A model generated the notes under the pieces. It had not been told where the DNA came from, did not search any database, and worked only from the letters and a program-made list of their open reading frames with translations. A program made the translations under genes and the position numbers. 64,000 bases of DNA, from NCBI RefSeq assembly GCF_041053055.1, contig NZ_CP163443.1, positions 3,534,001 through 3,598,000 on the forward strand, in the 5' to 3' direction. This document shows, piece by piece, positions 1-13,190 of this stretch. Numbering within the stretch: position 1 is the first letter of the stretch; every line of letters starts with the position of its first letter. The DNA is from Streptomyces sp. R41 (GTDB lineage Bacteria > Actinomycetota > Actinomycetes > Streptomycetales > Streptomycetaceae).

Positions 1-1523
1 CCACCGCGTACGCCGATTGGCTGCTCAAGATCTTCGACCGGTGGGACCGGCAGGGGCGCACCGTCTCGGTGCGGACCTTCGAGTCGGTCCTCAGCACCCT
101 GCGGGGCGGGCCGAGCCTGACGGAGGCGATGGGGCTCGCGCCGAGCGATCTCGCGGTGGTGGAGACCGACGGCAGTTTCGAGCAGGCGGACTCGCTGAAG
201 ACGGCGTACGACGGGGCACCGGCGACCGGTTACGACGTCTTCCAGCATCGCTTCGCGGAGTTCGCGCGGCATCCCGGCGTCCGCGCCCGCCAGCTGGGCC
301 TCGCCGGTGTCAGCGCGACCTGCCGCCGCTGCCCGGTGATCGAATCGTGCGGCGGAGGCCTCTACGCCCACCGGTACAGCAGCGGCCGCGGCTTCGACAA
401 TCCGTCCGTTTTCTGTTCCGACCTGCGCGCTTTCGTCGACGGCGTGGCCGAGCGCATCACCGACCACACCCTCAGCCCGGCCGTCCGCGACCGGGACGAA
501 CTCCGTTTTGCTCAGGGTGAGTTGAATCGGCACTCGCTCTCCCACGCGGTGGCCCGGCACTCCGGAGAGCCGGACTGGGACGAAATGTGGCGGGCCTTCC
601 TGTACTTGGACGGCACGCCGGACGCGACGCCCGAGGTCGACGAGATCCTCGCCCACCCCTATCTGCACACCGCGCTGAAGCACTGTCTGCACGACCGGGT
701 CACCACCCCGGCGCCGCTCGCCTCAGCGATCGTCGCGGTCGCCGTCCGCGCACGGGCCGACCTCAAGCTCACCTGGGACCAGACCGCCCCCGAGCTGCAC
801 CTCCCCACCCTGGGGACCCTCGCGCTCCCGGAAGGGGGCCGCCTCGAAGTCACCGTGACCGCCGGCCGGCTCCGGGTGCGTACCACCACGGGCGAGGAGT
901 GCGGCCCCGAGGACACCCCCGCTCCATGGCGCCCCCTGCACCCCATGACCCTCACGGACGGCACCCCGCTGCTCCTCGACGACGCCGACCCCCTGCGCGA
1001 CTGCTACCCCGCCCGCGTCACCCCGCCCCTCGACCCCGACGAGCTCGCCAGGTTCACCGAACGGCTGTGCACGGCCTACGAGTTGATGGAGGAGCGCGAG
1101 CCCGGCTGGCGTGACGACGTCAACGCGCTGCTCGCCACCACGGTCACCCCGCTCGTGGCGGGCGCCGGAGTGCGGCTCGGCGCGCACGGGCTCGGCGCGG
1201 TGGGCGTGGCCGTCGACTTCGAGCCGGAGGAGTTCGTGCGTGAACTGCCGCGCACCGGACGTCTGGCGCGGCTCGCGGCGCTGCGGGAGACGGCGGATCT
1301 GAACGTGCCGGGCAGCAGGGCCGGACGGCTGCTCGACGAGGCGAGCCGGGAGCTCGGCAACGCCGCCTTCTGGAAGGGCGACGACGACGCGCGCGCCGCC
1401 GCGCTGGAGCGGACGGGCCGCGCCCTGGAGCAGCTGGCCACCCGATCTCAGGGCGAACTCACCGAGACGGGCGCGGTGTTGGCCGAGGAACTGCGGGCCG
1501 AGTGGGCGGGCCACCGTGACTGA
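1..1523 (+). CDS. fxsB: FxsB-type radical SAM/SPASM peptide maturase with degenerate hydroxylase extension (5' partial)
   Basis: The gene starts before the window; the reading frame is open from base 3, so only the C-terminal part is present and the radical SAM CxxxCxxC motif is missing. What remains begins with a typical SPASM approach region and then a SPASM cluster: Cys85, Cys88, Cys94 and Cys116 (numbered from the ATG at 69). FxsB enzymes install cyclophane cross-links in FxSxx-COOH precursor peptides. About 370 further residues follow. Their end resembles the HExxH peptide beta-hydroxylase family (a stretch with VTPL, then a conserved helix), but where that family has HExxH this protein reads RTGRL (residues 395-399), and no HExxH occurs anywhere else. 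I therefore read it as a fused, inactive hydroxylase domain. The stop overlaps the next gene by 8 bp. The FxsB assignment rests heavily on the neighbouring FxsC and TPR genes. Confidence 0.82.
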   Translation, partial: TAYADWLLKIFDRWDRQGRTVSVRTFESVLSTLRGGPSLTEAMGLAPSDLAVVETDGSFEQADSLKTAYDGAPATGYDVFQHRFAEFARHPGVRARQLGLAGVSATCRRCPVIESCGGGLYAHRYSSGRGFDNPSVFCSDLRAFVDGVAERITDHTLSPAVRDRDELRFAQGELNRHSLSHAVARHSGEPDWDEMWRAFLYLDGTPDATPEVDEILAHPYLHTALKHCLHDRVTTPAPLASAIVAVAVRARADLKLTWDQTAPELHLPTLGTLALPEGGRLEVTVTAGRLRVRTTTGEECGPEDTPAPWRPLHPMTLTDGTPLLLDDADPLRDCYPARVTPPLDPDELARFTERLCTAYELMEEREPGWRDDVNALLATTVTPLVAGAGVRLGAHGLGAVGVAVDFEPEEFVRELPRTGRLARLAALRETADLNVPGSRAGRLLDEASRELGNAAFWKGDDDARAAALERTGRALEQLATRSQGELTETGAVLAEELRAEWAGHRD

Positions 1524-2289
1524 TCGCACCCAACTGGCTCATTTATTCGCCGAGTTGGGGGTGCGCCCCGGCGGCATCCTCATGGTCCACGCCTCCCTCG
1601 GCGGTGCGGGGCTGCGCGACACCCACGTACGGGACGCGCTGCTCGACGCGCTCGGCCCCGACGGCACGCTCGTCGTGCCCGCCTTCTCGCCGGAGAACTC
1701 CTTCACCTCCCGGGCGTACAAGGCGCTCACCGACGGCATGTCCGAGGACGAGGAGGCGGTGTTCCGGGCGTCGGCGCCCCCGTTCGATCCCGATACGACG
1801 CCCTGCCCGACGATGGGCGTGCTCGCCGAGTGCGTACGGACCACCCCGGGCGCCGTGCGCAGCGGGCATCCGCACACCTCGCTGGCCGGGCTCGGCCCCC
1901 GGGCCGGGGAGCTGCTGGGCCAGCACGATCCGCACTGCCATCTCGGTGAGCGCTCCCCGCTGGCGCGGCTGTACGCCGCCGACGCCCAAGTCCTGCTGTT
2001 CCGCGTGGGGTTCGAGGTGTGCAGCGCGTTCCATCTCGCCGAGTACCGGATGCGGCCCGCGCCCGCGCGACGGGCGTACCACTGTGTGACGGTCGAGAAG
2101 GGCCACTGGACCGCGTACGAGGACATCGTGCTGTACGACGGGGACTTCGGGGCGATCGGGGCGCGGCTGCCGCGTGATCTCGTGACGGAACGGGAAATGG
2201 CGGGGAAAGCGGTACTGCTCCTCGGGATGCGGGAAGCGGTCGACCAGGCCGGTGTCCAGATGTCTGAATATCGCCATGGATTGACGTGA
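1516..2289 (+). CDS. AAC(3)-family N-acetyltransferase of the fxs locus
   Basis: This 257-residue protein has the layout of aminoglycoside 3-N-acetyltransferases: an N-terminal MVHASLGG segment, DGTLVVPAFS, a HPHTSLAGLG motif near residue 118 and a following HCHLGERSPLARL region that carries the acetyl-CoA/substrate-binding residues of the family. Length is normal for the family. The GTG start lies inside the end of fxsB (8-bp overlap), which implies translational coupling. AAC(3) relatives recur in FxSxx-COOH loci, so its substrate may be a peptide or metabolite rather than an antibiotic; that is inference. Codon 10 (1543-1545) is TTA, which in Streptomyces needs the bldA tRNA, so translation may be tied to development. 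Confidence 0.85.
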   Translation: MTDRTQLAHLFAELGVRPGGILMVHASLGGAGLRDTHVRDALLDALGPDGTLVVPAFSPENSFTSRAYKALTDGMSEDEEAVFRASAPPFDPDTTPCPTMGVLAECVRTTPGAVRSGHPHTSLAGLGPRAGELLGQHDPHCHLGERSPLARLYAADAQVLLFRVGFEVCSAFHLAEYRMRPAPARRAYHCVTVEKGHWTAYEDIVLYDGDFGAIGARLPRDLVTEREMAGKAVLLLGMREAVDQAGVQMSEYRHGLT

Positions 2290-2387
2290 AAGAGGCGACC
2301 CGTGCGGGCGCTCGGTCGGGAAGATTGTGGGTTCCGGCCAGGTGAACCGAACATCCCGTAGGGGCTCATCCACAGGCAGGGGGGCGC

Positions 2388-3713
2388 GTGGACATACCTG
2401 AACGGGCTTCGGACAACCGGCCATATTTCTTCCTGAGTTACGCCCACACGCCGGCCTGGGGGCCCGGCGGCGGCGATCCGGATCACTGGGTGCACGTCCT
2501 CTTCACGGACCTGTGCGACCACATCATGGCGCTCACGGATCTTCCGGCGGGCGCGCCCGCCGGATTCATGGACCGGGAGATGCGCTCGGGGGACGGATGG
2601 CCGGAAAAGCTCAGTGAGAATCTCGCGACGTGCCGGGTGTTCGTGCCGCTGTTCTCGCCGCGGTACTTCACGAGTGAGAGTTGCGGTCGGGAATGGTTCG
2701 CTTTCAATGAACGTATTCTGCGGGCGCGGGCGACCGGTTCCGGTGCCGTGCCGGCCATCGTCCCCGCACTGTGGACGCATATCGATTACGCCCAACTCCC
2801 CGACTCCGTACGGCATATACACGTGGATCACGGGGCTTTCGGCGACCGGTACGCGGCCAACGGGATCTACGGTCTGATCAAGCTCAACCGGCTGCACGAC
2901 GAGTACGAGGAGACCGTCCTCGGGCTCGCCCAGCGGATCGTGCGGGTCGCCCACGAGTCGCCGCTGCCGTCCAGCAGGCCCCGCCCGTACGAGAGCACGC
3001 CGAGCGCGTTCAAGCCGCGCGGCGAGGGCCCCCGGAGCATCCATCTGACGGTGGCGGCGCCCACCCGGCACAGCATCCCCGAGCACCGCGACGCCCGCCC
3101 GTACGGCGAGGACGCGCAGGACTGGAATCCGTACCACTCGGAGTCGACCCGCCCGCTGCCCTCGCTCGCCGAGGAGCTGATCCGTTCCCTCGACTACCGG
3201 ATCACGGTGTCGTCCTTCGACGACGAGGACACCGGCGAGAGCCTGGTGACGGACGACTCCGACAAGGCGGCGCCGAGCCACCCCGGCATCCTGCTCATCG
3301 ACCGGTGGGCGCTGACCGACGAGGAACGCACGCGCAGACTCAAGGCCTTCGACGCGAACGCCCGCCCCTGGGTCAGCGCGATCGTCCCCTGGAACCGGGC
3401 CGACATCCAGTGCCACGGCGAGGAGGGCCGCAAGCTCGCGGCGGACCTGGAGCGGACGCTGCCGCTGATCCTGGACCGGGGGCGGCGCACCGACTGCCGG
3501 GTCGCCGTCAACGGCGTACCCACTCTGAAGGCCTTCACCGACGTCCTGCCGGCCGTCGTCGCGCACGCGACCCGGCAGTACCTCAAGCACGCCGAGGCGC
3601 ATCCGCCCCCGGGCCCGCCGATCCGCAGGCCCCGTCTGATGGGCCCCACCACGGGCCCCACCCACCCGCCGCTGCCCGAAGGCGGATCCGACCACGGAGG
3701 AGAAGAAGCATGA
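2388..3713 (+). CDS. fxsC: TIR-like protein FxsC
   Basis: A 441-residue protein starting at GTG after a purine-rich AGGGGGG ribosome site. The N-terminus (residues 12-20, PYFFLSYAH) begins a TIR-like fold. It continues through a conserved FMDREM segment near residue 60 and the CRVFVPLFSPRYF and SESCGREWFAF segments typical of TIR/SEFIR-like domains; this first domain fills roughly residues 10-190. A second, less familiar region (about 250-400) is conserved-looking (ILLIDRWALTD, RPWVSAIVPWNR). FxsC is the named TIR-like partner in FxSxx-COOH peptide systems; its biochemical role is unknown. A 98-bp gap precedes it, with a short inverted repeat (GGTTC at 2330-2334, GAACC at 2344-2348). It overlaps the next gene by ATGA, so the two are probably coupled. 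Confidence 0.85.
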   Translation: MDIPERASDNRPYFFLSYAHTPAWGPGGGDPDHWVHVLFTDLCDHIMALTDLPAGAPAGFMDREMRSGDGWPEKLSENLATCRVFVPLFSPRYFTSESCGREWFAFNERILRARATGSGAVPAIVPALWTHIDYAQLPDSVRHIHVDHGAFGDRYAANGIYGLIKLNRLHDEYEETVLGLAQRIVRVAHESPLPSSRPRPYESTPSAFKPRGEGPRSIHLTVAAPTRHSIPEHRDARPYGEDAQDWNPYHSESTRPLPSLAEELIRSLDYRITVSSFDDEDTGESLVTDDSDKAAPSHPGILLIDRWALTDEERTRRLKAFDANARPWVSAIVPWNRADIQCHGEEGRKLAADLERTLPLILDRGRRTDCRVAVNGVPTLKAFTDVLPAVVAHATRQYLKHAEAHPPPGPPIRRPRLMGPTTGPTHPPLPEGGSDHGGEEA

Positions 3714-6700
3714 CGGCCGCGCAGGACGGACGCATCATCACCTTCTACTCGTACAAAGGGGGCACCGGCCGGACGATGGCCCTGGCCAACACCGCGTGGA
3801 TCCTCGCCGCCAACGGCAAACGCGTCCTGGCCGTCGACTGGGACCTGGAGGCTCCGGGTCTGCACCGCTTCTTCCACCCCTTCCTCGACCCCAACGCGCT
3901 CGCGGCCACCACCGGTGTCATCGACATCATCAACGAGTACGCCTGGGCCGCGACCACCGGAACCCAGCGCTCCGGCGCCTGGCACCTGGACTACGCGCGG
4001 GTGGAGCAGCACGCCATCTCACTGACCCCCGAGCGGCTCGGGCTGCGCTTCGTGGACGGCGGTTCGCTCGACTTCCTCTCCGCCGGGCGCCAGGACCGCT
4101 CGTACTCCGCGACCGTGTCCTCCTTCGAGTGGGACAACTTCTACGAGCGGCTGGGCGGCGGGCTGTTCCTCGACGCGCTGCGCGACGACATGAAGGCCTC
4201 GTACGACTACGTCCTGATCGACAGCCGGACCGGGCTCTCGGACAACGCCGACATCTGCACCATGCAGATGCCCGACGTACTCGTGGACTGCTTCACGCTC
4301 AGCGACCAGTCCCTCGACGGCGCGGCGGCCGTCGCCCGCAGCGTCGAGGACGGCTACCGCAAGCGCAAGATCCGCGTGCTGCCGGTGCCGATGCGGATCG
4401 ACGAGGGCGAGAAGGAGAAGGTCGACGCGGGACGGGCGCTGGCCCGGCTGAAGTTCGACGGGCTGCCCAAGGGGCTCGGGGGCGAGGAGCTCGGCGGCGA
4501 GGAGCTGACCGCGTACTGGGGTGCCGTCGAGATCCCGTACCGCCCGTACTACGCCTACGAGGAGACGCTCGCCACCGTCGGCGACGAGAGCGGCATCGCC
4601 AACTCGCTGCTGTCCGCCTTCGAACGGCTCACCGCGGTCATCTCGGACGGCGAGGTCACCACGCTGCCCCCGGTGCCGGAGCCGGTGCGGCTGCGCTGCC
4701 GCGACGCGTTCCTGCGGCGGCGGCCGATGACCACCGCGGCGGACGTCGTCATCACGTACGCGGCCGAGAACCGCATGTGGGCCGACTGGACCGAGGGCCT
4801 CCTCAAGCGCGCCGGCTGCAATGTCATCCCGCACGACATCGCCACCGGACCCGTCGAGCACCAGGACCCGGCCACGCACAACCTCGTCCTGCTGTCGAAC
4901 GCCTTCCGCAAGTCCCGCTACGCCGACGCCGTGTGGCGCGCCCTCATCGAGTCCGGCACGGACGCCCCGGGTGCCGCGCTGATCCCGCTGCGGGTCGACG
5001 AGGTCCGGCTGCCGGAGTCGTATCTCGACCACAACCCGGTCGATCTGCACCGGCTCGACGAGTCCCAGTGCGTCACCGCGCTGCTCGGCGTCCTCGAGCT
5101 GCCGGGCCGGCCCCTCGACGGCGGGCCCTCGGGTCCCCGCTTCCCCGGCAGCACCCCGGCGATCTGGAACGCGCCCCAGCGCAACAACACCTTCACCGGC
5201 CGCAACGTCATCCTGGACCGGGTCCGCGACCAGCTCGGCGGCGGCATCTCCGTCGTCCTGCCGCAGCCGCAGGCGCTGTTCGGACTCGGCGGCGTCGGCA
5301 AGACGCAGGTGGCGCTGGAGTACGTGCACCGGTTCATGGCGGACTACGACCTCGTGTGGTGGATCTCCGCCGAGGACCCCGGAAACGTCGTCTCCTCACT
5401 CGCCGAGCTCGCCGCCCGCATCGGGGCGCCCGGCGGCGAGGACATCAACCTGGCCAGCCAGGAAGCCGTGCAGATGCTGGGGCGCGGCGCGCCGACCAAA
5501 CGCTGGATCCTGGTCTTCGACAACGCCGACGACCCCGCACGGCTCACCCGTTACTTCCCGACCGGAGGCGGCGGGCACATCCTCGTCACCTCCCGCAACC
5601 AGGCCTGGGCGCAGCAGGGCGCCTCCCTGCCCATCGACGTGTTCCTGCGCGAGGAGAGCGTGGAACACCTCACCCGGCGCGCCTCGGGGCTCACCGCCGA
5701 GGAGGCCGACCAGGTGGCGATCGCGGTGGGCGACCTGCCGCTGGCCGTGGAACAGGCGGCGGCCTGGCTCGCCGAGACGGCCACCCCGATCGAGGAGTAC
5801 CTGCGGCAGCTGGCCGAGCAGACGACGGAGGTGCTGGACCTCAACCAGCCCGCCGACTACCCCAAGACGGTGGCGGCGACCTGGAACATCTCCATAGCGA
5901 GGCTCCGGGAACGCTCCCCGGCCTCCGTACGACTGCTGCAGCTCTGCGCGTTCCTGGCCGCCGAACCGATCTCCTCGCACCTGCTCTACAGCAAGGAGAT
6001 GATCGACGCCCTCAAGCCGTACGACCCCGCCCTCCAGGAGAGTCTGCTGCTCGGCCGGGTGATCCGGGAGATCGGCCGGTTCGCGCTCGCCAAGGTCGAC
6101 CAGGTCAGCAACAGCATCCAGGTGCACCGGCTGGTCCAGGCGGTGATCCGCTCGCAGCTGACCGAGGAGGAGCAGCGGCACGCCCGGCATGTCGTGCACA
6201 CGGTGCTCGCGGGCTGCCGGCCCGACGGCGACGAGCCGATCGACGACCCCGAGACCTGGCCGCGGTTCGCGGTCATCTGGCCGCACCTGAGCGCCTCCGA
6301 CGCCCGCAACTGCACCGAGGCGGAGACCCGGAGGCTGCTCATCGACCGCGTCCGCTATCTGTGGAAGCGCGGTGAGTTCCCCGGCGCCCAGGCACTCGCC
6401 GAGGAGCTCCTCGACCACTGGAAGCCGATACTCGGCGAGGACGACGTGCAGTACCTGTATCTGCGCTGCCAGCTGGGCAACGTGCTGCGCTCGCAGGGCC
6501 GTTACGTGGAGGCCCGGGAGATCAACACCGAACTCCTCGAACGCCAGAAGCGGGTACTCGGCCCCTCGCACCCGCACACCTACGTGACCATGTCCGGCCT
6601 CGCCAGTGACCTCGCGGCGCTCGGTGTGTACGGGTCTGCGGTGGAGTTCGCGCGCGAGGCGCACGAAGGCTTCAGCCAGATCTTCCACGAGTCGCACCGC

Positions 6701-7645
6701 CGCACCCTCAGCGCCGCCAACAATCTCGCGCTCGCGCTGCGCATGGTCGGCCGCTACGGCGAGGCCCGCGTCCTCGACCAGGACACCTACGACCGCCGCA
6801 TCGAGGTGCTGGGCCCCGACCACCCGTACACGCTGGCGTCGGCCGCGCGCCTGGGCCGCGACCTACGGGAGGTCGGCCGCTACACGGAATCGGTCTCCCT
6901 CCTCTCCCGCGCCTACGACGCGCACAAGCGCATCCTCGGCAAGGAGTTCCCCGGCACGCTGAGCTGCGCCAAGTCACTGGCCGTGTCGCTGCGCAGGGCG
7001 GGACAGTTCGAGGACGCGCGCCGGCTGACGACGGCGACGCGCGCGCAGTACCGGGCGCAGTACCCGACGTCGACCCCCGACTCGCTCGCCTGCGATCTGA
7101 ACATGGCGGCCGATCTGTTCGCCGCGGATGAGCGGGAGGCCGCGCGCGAGGTCGCCCGGGAGGCGCTGGCCGAGTACATGAAGGTCCCGGGTGAGGCCCA
7201 CCCCTACACCCAGGCCGCGCTGAACAACCTCGGCATCTTCCACTGGGGCTGCGGCGACACCGAGGAAGCGGAAACCGTCTTCCGCCAAGTCCTGCGCCGC
7301 ATGGGCGAGGTACTCGGCGAACAGCACCCGCACACCCTCTTCACCGGCATCAATTACGCCAACGTCCTCGCCGACCAGGGCCGCCTCGCCGAGGCCCGCA
7401 AGCTGGAGGAGAACGCGGTCGTCAAACTCCGTGCGGTCCTCGGAGCCCACCACCCGGAAACCCTCGCCATCGTCACCAACTCCGCGCTCACGCTCGCCGC
7501 GCTGGGCCACAAGGACGAGGCCCGCCGCCTCCGTGACGAAGCCCTCGGCGAACTGCGCACGCTGCTGGGCGACGACAACGGGATGACCCGGGTGGCGGCG
7601 GACGAGCGCCGCATTTACCGGGACTTGGAGCCGCTGGCGGTGTGA
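3710..7645 (+). CDS. fxsT: FxSxx-COOH system ParA-like/TIR/NB-ARC/TPR protein
   Basis: A 1311-residue multidomain protein. I chose the ATG at 3710 because it overlaps the fxsC stop (ATGA) and follows GGAGG at 3696-3700; an in-frame opening upstream lies within fxsC and is rejected. Domains in order: a MinD/ParA-like ATPase with deviant Walker A KGGTGRT at residues 16-22; a second TIR-like domain at about 340-480; an NB-ARC/STAND NTPase with P-loop GLGGVGKT at 525-532, Walker B-like WILVFDNAD and HILVTSRN; and about ten TPR/TPR_10 repeats from about 875 to the end, with recurring LGPxHPxT signatures. NB-ARC plus TPR with an effector-like TIR resembles signal-sensing STAND proteins. Being last in the fxs operon, it may sense or act with the modified peptide; that is inference. 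Confidence 0.9.
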   Translation: MTAAQDGRIITFYSYKGGTGRTMALANTAWILAANGKRVLAVDWDLEAPGLHRFFHPFLDPNALAATTGVIDIINEYAWAATTGTQRSGAWHLDYARVEQHAISLTPERLGLRFVDGGSLDFLSAGRQDRSYSATVSSFEWDNFYERLGGGLFLDALRDDMKASYDYVLIDSRTGLSDNADICTMQMPDVLVDCFTLSDQSLDGAAAVARSVEDGYRKRKIRVLPVPMRIDEGEKEKVDAGRALARLKFDGLPKGLGGEELGGEELTAYWGAVEIPYRPYYAYEETLATVGDESGIANSLLSAFERLTAVISDGEVTTLPPVPEPVRLRCRDAFLRRRPMTTAADVVITYAAENRMWADWTEGLLKRAGCNVIPHDIATGPVEHQDPATHNLVLLSNAFRKSRYADAVWRALIESGTDAPGAALIPLRVDEVRLPESYLDHNPVDLHRLDESQCVTALLGVLELPGRPLDGGPSGPRFPGSTPAIWNAPQRNNTFTGRNVILDRVRDQLGGGISVVLPQPQALFGLGGVGKTQVALEYVHRFMADYDLVWWISAEDPGNVVSSLAELAARIGAPGGEDINLASQEAVQMLGRGAPTKRWILVFDNADDPARLTRYFPTGGGGHILVTSRNQAWAQQGASLPIDVFLREESVEHLTRRASGLTAEEADQVAIAVGDLPLAVEQAAAWLAETATPIEEYLRQLAEQTTEVLDLNQPADYPKTVAATWNISIARLRERSPASVRLLQLCAFLAAEPISSHLLYSKEMIDALKPYDPALQESLLLGRVIREIGRFALAKVDQVSNSIQVHRLVQAVIRSQLTEEEQRHARHVVHTVLAGCRPDGDEPIDDPETWPRFAVIWPHLSASDARNCTEAETRRLLIDRVRYLWKRGEFPGAQALAEELLDHWKPILGEDDVQYLYLRCQLGNVLRSQGRYVEAREINTELLERQKRVLGPSHPHTYVTMSGLASDLAALGVYGSAVEFAREAHEGFSQIFHESHRRTLSAANNLALALRMVGRYGEARVLDQDTYDRRIEVLGPDHPYTLASAARLGRDLREVGRYTESVSLLSRAYDAHKRILGKEFPGTLSCAKSLAVSLRRAGQFEDARRLTTATRAQYRAQYPTSTPDSLACDLNMAADLFAADEREAAREVAREALAEYMKVPGEAHPYTQAALNNLGIFHWGCGDTEEAETVFRQVLRRMGEVLGEQHPHTLFTGINYANVLADQGRLAEARKLEENAVVKLRAVLGAHHPETLAIVTNSALTLAALGHKDEARRLRDEALGELRTLLGDDNGMTRVAADERRIYRDLEPLAV

Positions 7646-7667: not shown

Positions 7668-7711
7668 GCGCAGTTCCCCGCGCCCCTGAAAAGGGGCGCG
7701 GGGAACTGCGC
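7668..7711. terminator. Perfect 19-bp hairpin downstream of fxsT
   Basis: The arms 7668-7686 and 7693-7711 are perfectly complementary around a TGAAAA loop. It lies 22 bp after the fxsT stop and faces the end of the leftward hydrolase gene, so it may work in both directions. A close copy lies at 19075-19112. Confidence 0.8.
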
Positions 7712-12602: not shown

Positions 12603-12800
12603 CGGGGACCGCCCGCACCGGGGGAACCGACGACCCGCACGCCCGTCCCGGGGGCCCGTCGGGCGGCTTCGGCGTGTCGGGTTCCCTCCGGCGCCACATC
12701 TCGCGTACACAGGCCCGAACAGCACTCCGCCCCGACGGGTGATTCTCCGTCAGGGCGGTGACCACGCAGGTCAGATCGTTTCTTCACGCGTAGCGCGGAG

Positions 12801-12874
12801 TGGGGCGGGTGGGACTCGAACCCACGGCCGACGGATTATGAGTCCGCTGCTCTAACCGGCTGAGCTACCGCCCC
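12801..12874 (-). tRNA. tRNA with CAU anticodon (elongator Met or Ile2)
   Basis: A 74-nt cloverleaf on the minus strand. The acceptor stem GGGGCGG/CCGCCCC, D-arm, anticodon loop CTCATAA, and T-arm with GGTTCGAGTCC are all complete; the discriminator is A and CCA is not encoded. CAU may mean elongator methionine or lysidine-modified isoleucine; sequence alone did not let me decide. Confidence 0.93.
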
Positions 12875-13007
12875 ATACGGCGTGTCGCGCACATTTGTGC
12901 GCGCCGTCTGCCGCAGCATAGCCGCTCATACGATCTCCTGCTTCGGATGGTCGGCATCGCACGACCATGAGGACTTCGGCGCGGCCTGCGCGGTTCCCGC
13001 GGACATG

Positions 13008-13030
13008 AAAAAGGACCCCAGAGGGGTCCT
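13008..13030 (-). terminator. Rho-independent terminator after the tRNA-Asn pair
   Basis: Read leftward, an 8-bp stem AGGACCCC/GGGGTCCT with a 3-base loop is followed at once by TTTTT. It lies just downstream of tRNA-Asn at 13040, a textbook intrinsic terminator that is rare in such GC-rich DNA. Confidence 0.85.
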
Positions 13031-13039
13031 CTTCCGCTG

Positions 13040-13112
13040 CTCTCCCGACTGGACTCGAACCAGTAACCTGCCGGTTAACAGCCGGCTGCTCTGCCAATTG
13101 AGCTACAGGAGA
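13040..13112 (-). tRNA. tRNA-Asn (GUU), copy 2
   Basis: A 73-nt cloverleaf with anticodon loop CTGTTAA, acceptor stem TCTCCTG/CGGGAGA (one T-G wobble) and G73. The body from the D-arm through the T-arm is identical to the copy 5 bp upstream; only the acceptor stems differ. No CCA is encoded. Confidence 0.95.
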
Positions 13113-13117
13113 TCGAG

Positions 13118-13190
13118 CTCCCCCGACTGGACTCGAACCAGTAACCTGCCGGTTAACAGCCGGCTGCTCTGCCAATTGAGCTACGGAGGA
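13118..13190 (-). tRNA. tRNA-Asn (GUU), copy 1
   Basis: A 73-nt cloverleaf with anticodon GTT, acceptor stem TCCTCCG/CGGGGGA and G73. It is separated by only 5 bp from the next copy, so both are probably processed from one transcript that ends at the terminator at 13008-13030. Confidence 0.95.

Follow-up and report, generated by a model that had tools for sequence, protein, structure and literature searches.

A 64,000-nucleotide stretch of the Streptomyces sp. R41 genome (the window: positions 3534001-3598000 of G000:C1, genome 10.46 Mb) opens inside an operon of the FxSxx-COOH type, in which a maturase for a ribosomally synthesised and post-translationally modified peptide (RiPP) is encoded together with TIR, STAND and TPR proteins. 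Between the maturase gene fxsB and fxsC lies a gene for an AAC(3)-like protein (AAC3 below), and the conclusion that this gene is part of the FxSxx system is strongly supported. We read the whole as an FxsC-type FxSxx-COOH RiPP/STAND-TIR operon with a dedicated AAC(3)-fold acyltransferase acting on the FxsA peptide, a reading to which we give an even chance. Within the open-licence PMC literature searched, the AAC(3)-like gene is new as a member of the FxSxx system, and no report was found there that links RiPP or FxSxx systems with an aminoglycoside acetyltransferase. L, G and P numbers below denote loci, genomes and database proteins, respectively.

The gene order fxsA-fxsB-(AAC3)-fxsC-TPR is kept across 81 Streptomyces loci, comprising the present locus (L006) and, out of 341 relatives of one FxsB, the 80 best. 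AAC3 lies immediately 3′ of fxsB, or is fused to it, in 52 of the 81, and fxsC comes next in 49 of these; the remaining three, L029 and L037 (both at contig ends) and L048, showed no FxsC in the stretch taken. A gene may escape notice where a locus meets a contig end. A 61-genome Streptomyces sample contained 26 FxsC loci passing the FxsC cut-off (130 bits), 15 of which have a PF02522 match within a radius of 10 kb, against ~0.05 expected at an assumed 8.5 Mb per genome; AAC3 as a chance neighbour was rejected on this figure. The count draws on 45 AAC matches, with four short partial PF02522 rows (G005, G048) left out, and includes G014, whose AAC3 falls outside the operon clade; all 30 unlinked matches were placed in the tree. 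Counting as fxs-type any AAC3 that is linked or falls in the distal clade, 20 genomes of the sample have it together with FxsC, two have FxsC alone, one AAC3 alone and 38 neither.

Where the locus carries no AAC3, the gene is usually found elsewhere in the genome. Among 29 genomes without a local AAC3, 27 have a distal copy (26 at full length, one as two contig-end fragments), and these copies form their own clade beside the operon clade; the exceptions are G255 (L015), with the housekeeping type only, and G259 (L050), with none. In 50 operon-copy genomes (locus L029 was left out) the matches reach at most 266 bits, below the 284 bits or more of the 26 full-length distal copies; a 241-bit distal match in one of them, G299, is ambiguous as to type. 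G231, from a class sample, fits the pattern, with its local copy absent and a distal AAC3 inside the distal clade. The distal AAC3 neighbourhood (L207-L212) is common to at least five of six Streptomyces genomes. The AAC3 and FxsB trees were built with FastTree only.

AAC3 is also joined to fxs proteins in single polypeptides. Among 22 multidomain proteins, the partner is FxsB with its extension in six (two of them N-terminally cut), an HExxH hydroxylase alone in seven and FxsC in nine. The first group comprises L020 and L025, single open reading frames (ORFs) of FxsB, dead extension and AAC3; P0122 (N-terminally cut), with dead extension and AAC3; and P0123, P0125 and P0126 (the last N-terminally cut), with FxsB, a live HExxH domain and AAC3. 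HExxH plus AAC3 is seen in L098 (8253-10157), P0129, P0141, P0143, P0151, P0153 and P0170. AAC3 is fused to the FxsC TIR domain in P0124, P0127, P0128, P0131, P0132, P0157, P0163, P0168 and P0222; five of these nine exceed the FxsC cut-off of 130 bits and four fall just under it (125 to 129), only P0124 matches the FxsC C-terminal model, and eight are alike in length, maybe representing one lineage. The 19 database proteins were chosen by size and Pfam content from 18 and 98 listed matches, and all 19 are fxs fusions; other AAC3 fusions among the matches listed, such as those with GNAT or of fungal origin, are not fxs. In the FxsB tree L020 and L025 do not pair with each other, and the AAC3 of L098 lies outside the operon clade, so fusion has occurred at least twice; L020, L025 and L098 provide the only fused AAC3 domains in the tree.

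The operon runs fxsA, 153 nucleotides, fxsB, AAC(3)-like gene, 98 nucleotides, fxsC, TPR protein gene and then a 20-pair hairpin. The window begins within fxsB, whose 3′ part occupies positions 3-1523; window positions are L006 positions minus 12000, so that upstream features carry negative numbers. An earlier note, made from the window's sequence, had described four genes in one overlapping row. All four, including the AAC(3)-like gene, to which that note gave no role, are present at the coordinates listed here. The AAC(3)-like gene overlaps fxsB by 8 nucleotides and the TPR gene overlaps fxsC by 4; the AAC(3)-like gene and fxsC are separated by the 98-nucleotide gap. The features are as follows.

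-972..-790 (L006:11028-11210), wholly outside the window: fxsA, precursor, 60 amino acids, called from end motif, place and conservation
-636..1523 (L006:11364-13523), + strand: fxsB, radical SAM/SPASM cyclophane maturase, 719 amino acids (TIGR04269, 597 bits)
471..1505, + strand: predicted inactivated beta-hydroxylase extension of FxsB, HExxH lost (NF040587, 310 bits)
1516..2289, + strand: AAC(3)-fold (Antibiotic_NAT) acyltransferase, 257 amino acids, GTG start (PF02522, 206 bits)
2023..2043, + strand: S170-A-F-H173-L-A-E176 catalytic motif of the AAC(3)-like protein (Antibiotic_NAT family motif)
2388..3713, + strand: fxsC, N-terminal TIR and C-terminal domain, 441 amino acids
2691..2693, + strand: FxsC Glu102, presumed TIR NADase catalytic residue (S-x-x-C-G-x-E-W)
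3710..7645, + strand: FxSxx system TPR protein with ParA/MinD-like, TIR, STAND (NB-ARC) and TPR parts, ATG at 3710 (NF040586)
3731..4345, + strand: ParA/MinD-like domain, altered P-loop KGGTGRT (P-loop Lys to Arg)
4745..5068, + strand: TIR domain of the STAND protein, Val407 where the catalytic Glu is expected (PF13676)
5273..5827, + strand: NB-ARC/STAND ATPase, intact P-loop GLGGVGKT (PF00931)
6344..7297, + strand: TPR array, approximate limits (PF13424, PF13374)
7668..7711, + strand: terminator-like hairpin, 20-pair stem, directly 3′ of the last stop (pattern match only)

The hairpin at 7668..7711 likely marks the operon end; the same pattern matching finds two terminator-like hairpins in the stretch, where shuffled sequence gives 3.0 on average. 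A promoter scan found none.

The precursor gene, expected by the earlier note just upstream of position 1, is present in the same genome about 0.8 kb upstream, and its product ends ITFDSAL-COOH. The C-terminus (...KPITFDSAL-COOH; RRPVKPITFDSAL) thus closes on F-D-S-A-L. ORFs ending F-x-S-x-x are found within 420 nucleotides 5′ of fxsB in 78 of 81 loci, compared with 0 of 81 when the other strand of these stretches was searched over the same distance; in L017 the motif ORF lies further upstream, and L020 and L038 have none within that distance. The 78 ends follow F-[NDTS]-S-[ASGC]-[LVI], in which F and S are invariant by construction of the search; the places beside them are also narrow, [ASGC] and then [LVI]. 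fxsA matches no NCBIfam model at E 1e-3, and the call is therefore made on motif, place and conservation.

Full-length FxsB matches TIGR04269 at 597 bits (cut-off 370), with Cys at residues 14, 18 and 21, and its closest solved structure is the ChlB radical SAM domain (9gm3, 272 bits). No unrelated SPASM family scores ahead of TIGR04269, confirming the maturase as FxsB. The extension matches NF040587, the lost-HExxH model, at 310 bits (cut-off 225) and is homologous to alpha-ketoglutarate-dependent (alphaKG-) HExxH hydroxylases. HExxH is found in 0 of 81 FxsB proteins: the first His is replaced by R, T, S, L or G and the second mostly by R, and R-T-G-R-L occupies the motif place in this FxsB. 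Judged by its sequence, the extension here is dead as an alphaKG-HExxH beta-hydroxylase, and no hydroxylation is expected from it because HExxH is lost. The same genome holds two more FxsB loci (2311669-2318436 and 7053070-7060205, at 2.31 and 7.05 Mb) with intact HExxH and a TPR protein; the 18 to 20 kb covered at each contain neither FxsC nor AAC3.

The AAC(3)-like protein is placed in the Antibiotic_NAT fold family by its PF02522 match (206 bits) and by the catalytic His/Glu motif, given in the available part of PMC8956665 as Tx(hydrophobic)H(hydrophobic)AE. H173 and E176 are present in all 52 of 52 operon copies, and the first place of the motif, position 170, is S in 27 and T in 25. Five NCBIfam AAC(3) models match, all under their curated cut-offs (best NF033082, 115.5 bits vs 270). 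The closest solved structure is that of FrbF (3sma, 162 bits), for which the available text of PMC8956665 reports no aminoglycoside activity. A second AAC3 of this genome falls in a separate housekeeping clade (support 0.999).

The naming of the two downstream products as FxsC and the FxSxx-TPR protein is upheld by models that all exceed their cut-offs: NF040588 (234 bits, cut-off 130) and TIGR04276 (170 bits, cut-off 55) for the former, and NF040586 (1027 bits, cut-off 300) for the latter. FxsC has a TIR fold with a presumed catalytic Glu. This is Glu102, which we take to be the catalytic residue from motif spacing; the aligned position is E in 73 of 76 sequences, with two Q and one gap. The last protein carries an N-terminal ParA/MinD-like domain, additional to the domains named in the earlier note; all chains in the VIA structure list for this N-terminus are ParA/MinD-like. 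The STAND P-loop G-L-G-G-V-G-K is present in 75 of 75 sequences and, with PF00931 and C-terminal TPRs, identifies a STAND ATPase. Its TIR domain matches PF13676 and appears to lack the catalytic Glu, so that it is not classed as a catalytic TIR: position 407, matched to FxsC 90-103 ungapped by eye and not by structure, is V in 42, L in 19, A in 5, I in 4 and F in 2 of 75 sequences, and hydrophobic in at least 72. Searches of PDB with an FxsC profile (E 1e-3) and with both TIR single sequences (E up to 10) returned no TIR relative. Foldseek with the whole FxsC model gave nothing at E 1e-3; the top rows (E ~0.01) were TIR domains, and VIA-align confirmed them.

Because the FxsC TIR keeps its presumed catalytic Glu and the STAND TIR is without one, we infer that sensor and executor may be split over two proteins, a dead-TIR STAND protein and a live-TIR FxsC. 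Coupling of a modified peptide to a STAND/TIR machine, suggested from the window alone, stands on the conserved gene order; it is not new, since it was proposed in PMC7159879. The machine may work in immunity or self-recognition, systems that the earlier note took it to resemble. A full match to a PADLOC defence protein was rejected, as PADLOC-DB gave weak partial matches only: pVip at 35 bits, in the radical SAM domain, and PDC-M28B at 78 and 38 bits, in the ParA-like domain.

Immediately 5′ of fxsA lie MreB-like and sensor histidine kinase-like genes (L006:8128-10741), and ORFs ending like the L006 sensor kinase recur 5′ of fxsB in several nearest relatives. Further into the window, 12800-13190 holds three minus-strand tRNA genes (one Met, two tandem Asn), and the repeated ORF translations near 13039-13190 are tRNA artefacts.

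Phe-to-Ser cyclophane links are the chemistry of the FxsB family, and in the mechanism we propose FxsB would probably join Phe to Ser, closing a cyclophane within the F-x-S at the FxsA C-terminus. The extension, its hydroxylation apparently lost with the metal site, may hold the substrate or a partner. The AAC(3)-fold enzyme would then acylate the FxsA peptide, with acetyl or another acyl group, more probably on a hydroxyl or on an alpha-amine freed by processing than on a core lysine, which is mostly absent: among FxsA peptides from operon-copy loci, Lys is missing from the last 12 residues in 37 of 50 and from the last 30 in 29 of 50. Acylation of a core lysine was rejected on these counts. 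The finished peptide would control the ParA-like/TIR/STAND/TPR protein, whose dead TIR could recruit FxsC, and the FxsC TIR would cleave NAD+ or a related nucleotide. The result would be a split NLR-like device, a STAND sensor with a separate TIR executor, in which the acylated cyclophane peptide serves as signal or safety catch. Fusions L098, P0123, P0125 and P0126, in which a live HExxH beta-hydroxylase, in some of them alongside FxsB, is combined with AAC3, would be suited as test enzymes for the acylation idea.

Several observations weigh against an acyltransferase dedicated to FxsA. AAC3 is dispensable, as L015, L050 and G053 have this FxsB type in genomes without fxs-type AAC3. Not every FxsC system has the gene: in the class sample AAC3 is near 5 of 20 FxsC stretches (L185, one of the 20, is under the FxsC cut-off), the majority of FxsC loci obtained from other families are without it, and the fxs type is absent from sampled FxsC genomes of families f18 (6 of 6 with no match) and f17 (no match in G209, a 44% match only in G113). 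AAC3 also stands beside intact HExxH, in L172, L175, L100 and L098 (L097-L100 were chosen because AAC3 lay near) and in fusions P0123, P0125 and P0126, so that it is no simple replacement of the hydroxylase. The nine AAC3-FxsC fusions would also fit a role on the effector side instead of in peptide maturation, with a protein as conceivable target. The operon encodes no recognised protease, which makes a free alpha-amine on FxsA an assumption. Finally, 24 of the 27 distal-copy loci belong to one FxsB clade, with three separate cases (L038, L053, L074), and the counts are therefore not phylogenetically independent; support for the node that unites the distal with the operon clade is unstable (0.99 vs 0.78 in two trees).

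The effector-side fusions lend themselves to two other accounts, both of which we judge unlikely. In the first, the target of AAC3 is not the peptide but a small second messenger or one of the system's proteins (FxsC, FxsB or the TPR protein). Besides the nine fusions, it would suit the absence of AAC3 from all 38 fetched loci without FxsC, and G053, the one sampled genome with the FxsB type but no FxsC, which has no AAC3 either. AAC3 is equally fused, however, to FxsB and HExxH enzymes, which act on the peptide. FxsC also occurs without fxs-type AAC3 in G255 (L015) and G259 (L050; its FxsC lies outside its 22-kb stretch, elsewhere in the genome), G029 shows the reverse, a distal AAC3 without FxsC, and none of the four FxsC loci lacking a neighbouring FxsB (L203-L206) has AAC3 nearby.

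In the second, AAC3 is an antidote that acylates, and so silences, a toxic or STAND-activating cyclophane peptide. Acyltransferases can provide self-protection, and fusion to FxsC would put AAC3 at the effector; the available text of PMC7159879 allows the peptide to be a toxin. The maturase fusions fit maturation better than neutralisation, however, and L015, L050 and G053, being without fxs-type AAC3, are incompatible with an obligate antidote.

A replacement of the lost beta-hydroxylase by AAC3 as second tailoring step, which we consider quite improbable, would account for the loss of HExxH in all 81 FxsB proteins and the presence of fxs-type AAC3, in cis or in trans, in 79 of 81 genomes. 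The loci and fusions that pair AAC3 with intact HExxH speak against it, and strict substitution was rejected because they contradict it; at most, an AAC3 already present in one lineage may have rendered the hydroxylase dispensable there. The weakest proposal, an aminoglycoside-resistance gene sitting in the operon by chance, has in its favour the Pfam Antibiotic_NAT match and the AAC(3) labels of homologues in their sources, and we regard it as almost certainly wrong given the 15/26 linkage against ~0.05 expected, the 22 fusions to fxs proteins, NCBIfam AAC(3) scores under cut-off (at best 115.5/270 bits), FrbF as closest structure, with no aminoglycoside activity reported in the part of PMC8956665 available, and the separate clade (0.999) of the genome's other AAC3.

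We keep to AAC3 as an acyltransferase of the FxsA peptide, at the even chance given above. Our wider proposal, which we put at a little short of even, is that AAC(3)-fold enzymes, familiar from antibiotic resistance, include a hitherto unrecognised RiPP acyltransferase class and that acylation of FxSxx cyclophane peptides sets the firing of a split, immune-like STAND/TIR pair in multicellular actinobacteria. If true, many Streptomyces genes named AAC(3) aminoglycoside acetyltransferases would be reassigned to a peptide-signalling system, the AAC(3) fold would gain a place in RiPP biosynthesis, and the function of FxSxx peptides would become testable through the mass they bear and through the identity of the enzymatic member of the TIR pair.

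Among known systems, the locus is closest to the FxSxx-COOH system itself (TIGR04269, NF040587, NF040588, TIGR04276, NF040586), with models over cut-off, the FxsA end and the gene order alike; a dedicated AAC(3)-fold enzyme, encoded downstream of fxsB, sets it apart from the system as described in the accessible portions of PMC7159879. In those portions of this eLife 2020 study (Kaur et al.), FxSxx peptides are described with radical SAM enzymes, a TIR-AP-ATPase-TPR protein and an inactive MinD/ParA-like domain, as stand-alone systems of actinobacteria that process peptides and are coupled to AP-ATPase conflict proteins, the peptide being proposed as a toxin or signal. The present operon shares the FxSxx peptide, radical SAM/SPASM enzyme, AP-ATPase with TIR and TPR, and inactive MinD/ParA-like domain. 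An AAC(3)-type enzyme is not mentioned in those portions, where, references aside, 'acetyltransferase' and 'aminoglycoside' refer to GCN5-like and APH kinase domains only. The HExxH domain is read there as a peptidase, and later work, as quoted in the part of PMC12636437 available, makes the HExxH protein a hydroxylase; in the operon described here this domain appears dead. ChlB/ChlH-type enzymes, fused radical SAM and alphaKG-HExxH proteins (Morishita et al. 2024, as cited in the available text of PMC12636437 and PDB 9gm3), resemble FxsB in the radical SAM domain (272 bits) and have a homologous extension, the HExxH being lost here. AAC3 shares the Antibiotic_NAT fold family and catalytic His/Glu motif with FrbF, its best solved match; FrbF acts in phosphonate biosynthesis, by a title cited in PMC8956665, whereas the AAC3 clade is tied to a RiPP system. 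Compared with the TIR NADases of immunity (AbTir, SPARTA TIR-APAZ and plant TIR-NLRs), the catalytic and the STAND-linked TIRs are here found on two proteins, and the proposed ligand is a RiPP.

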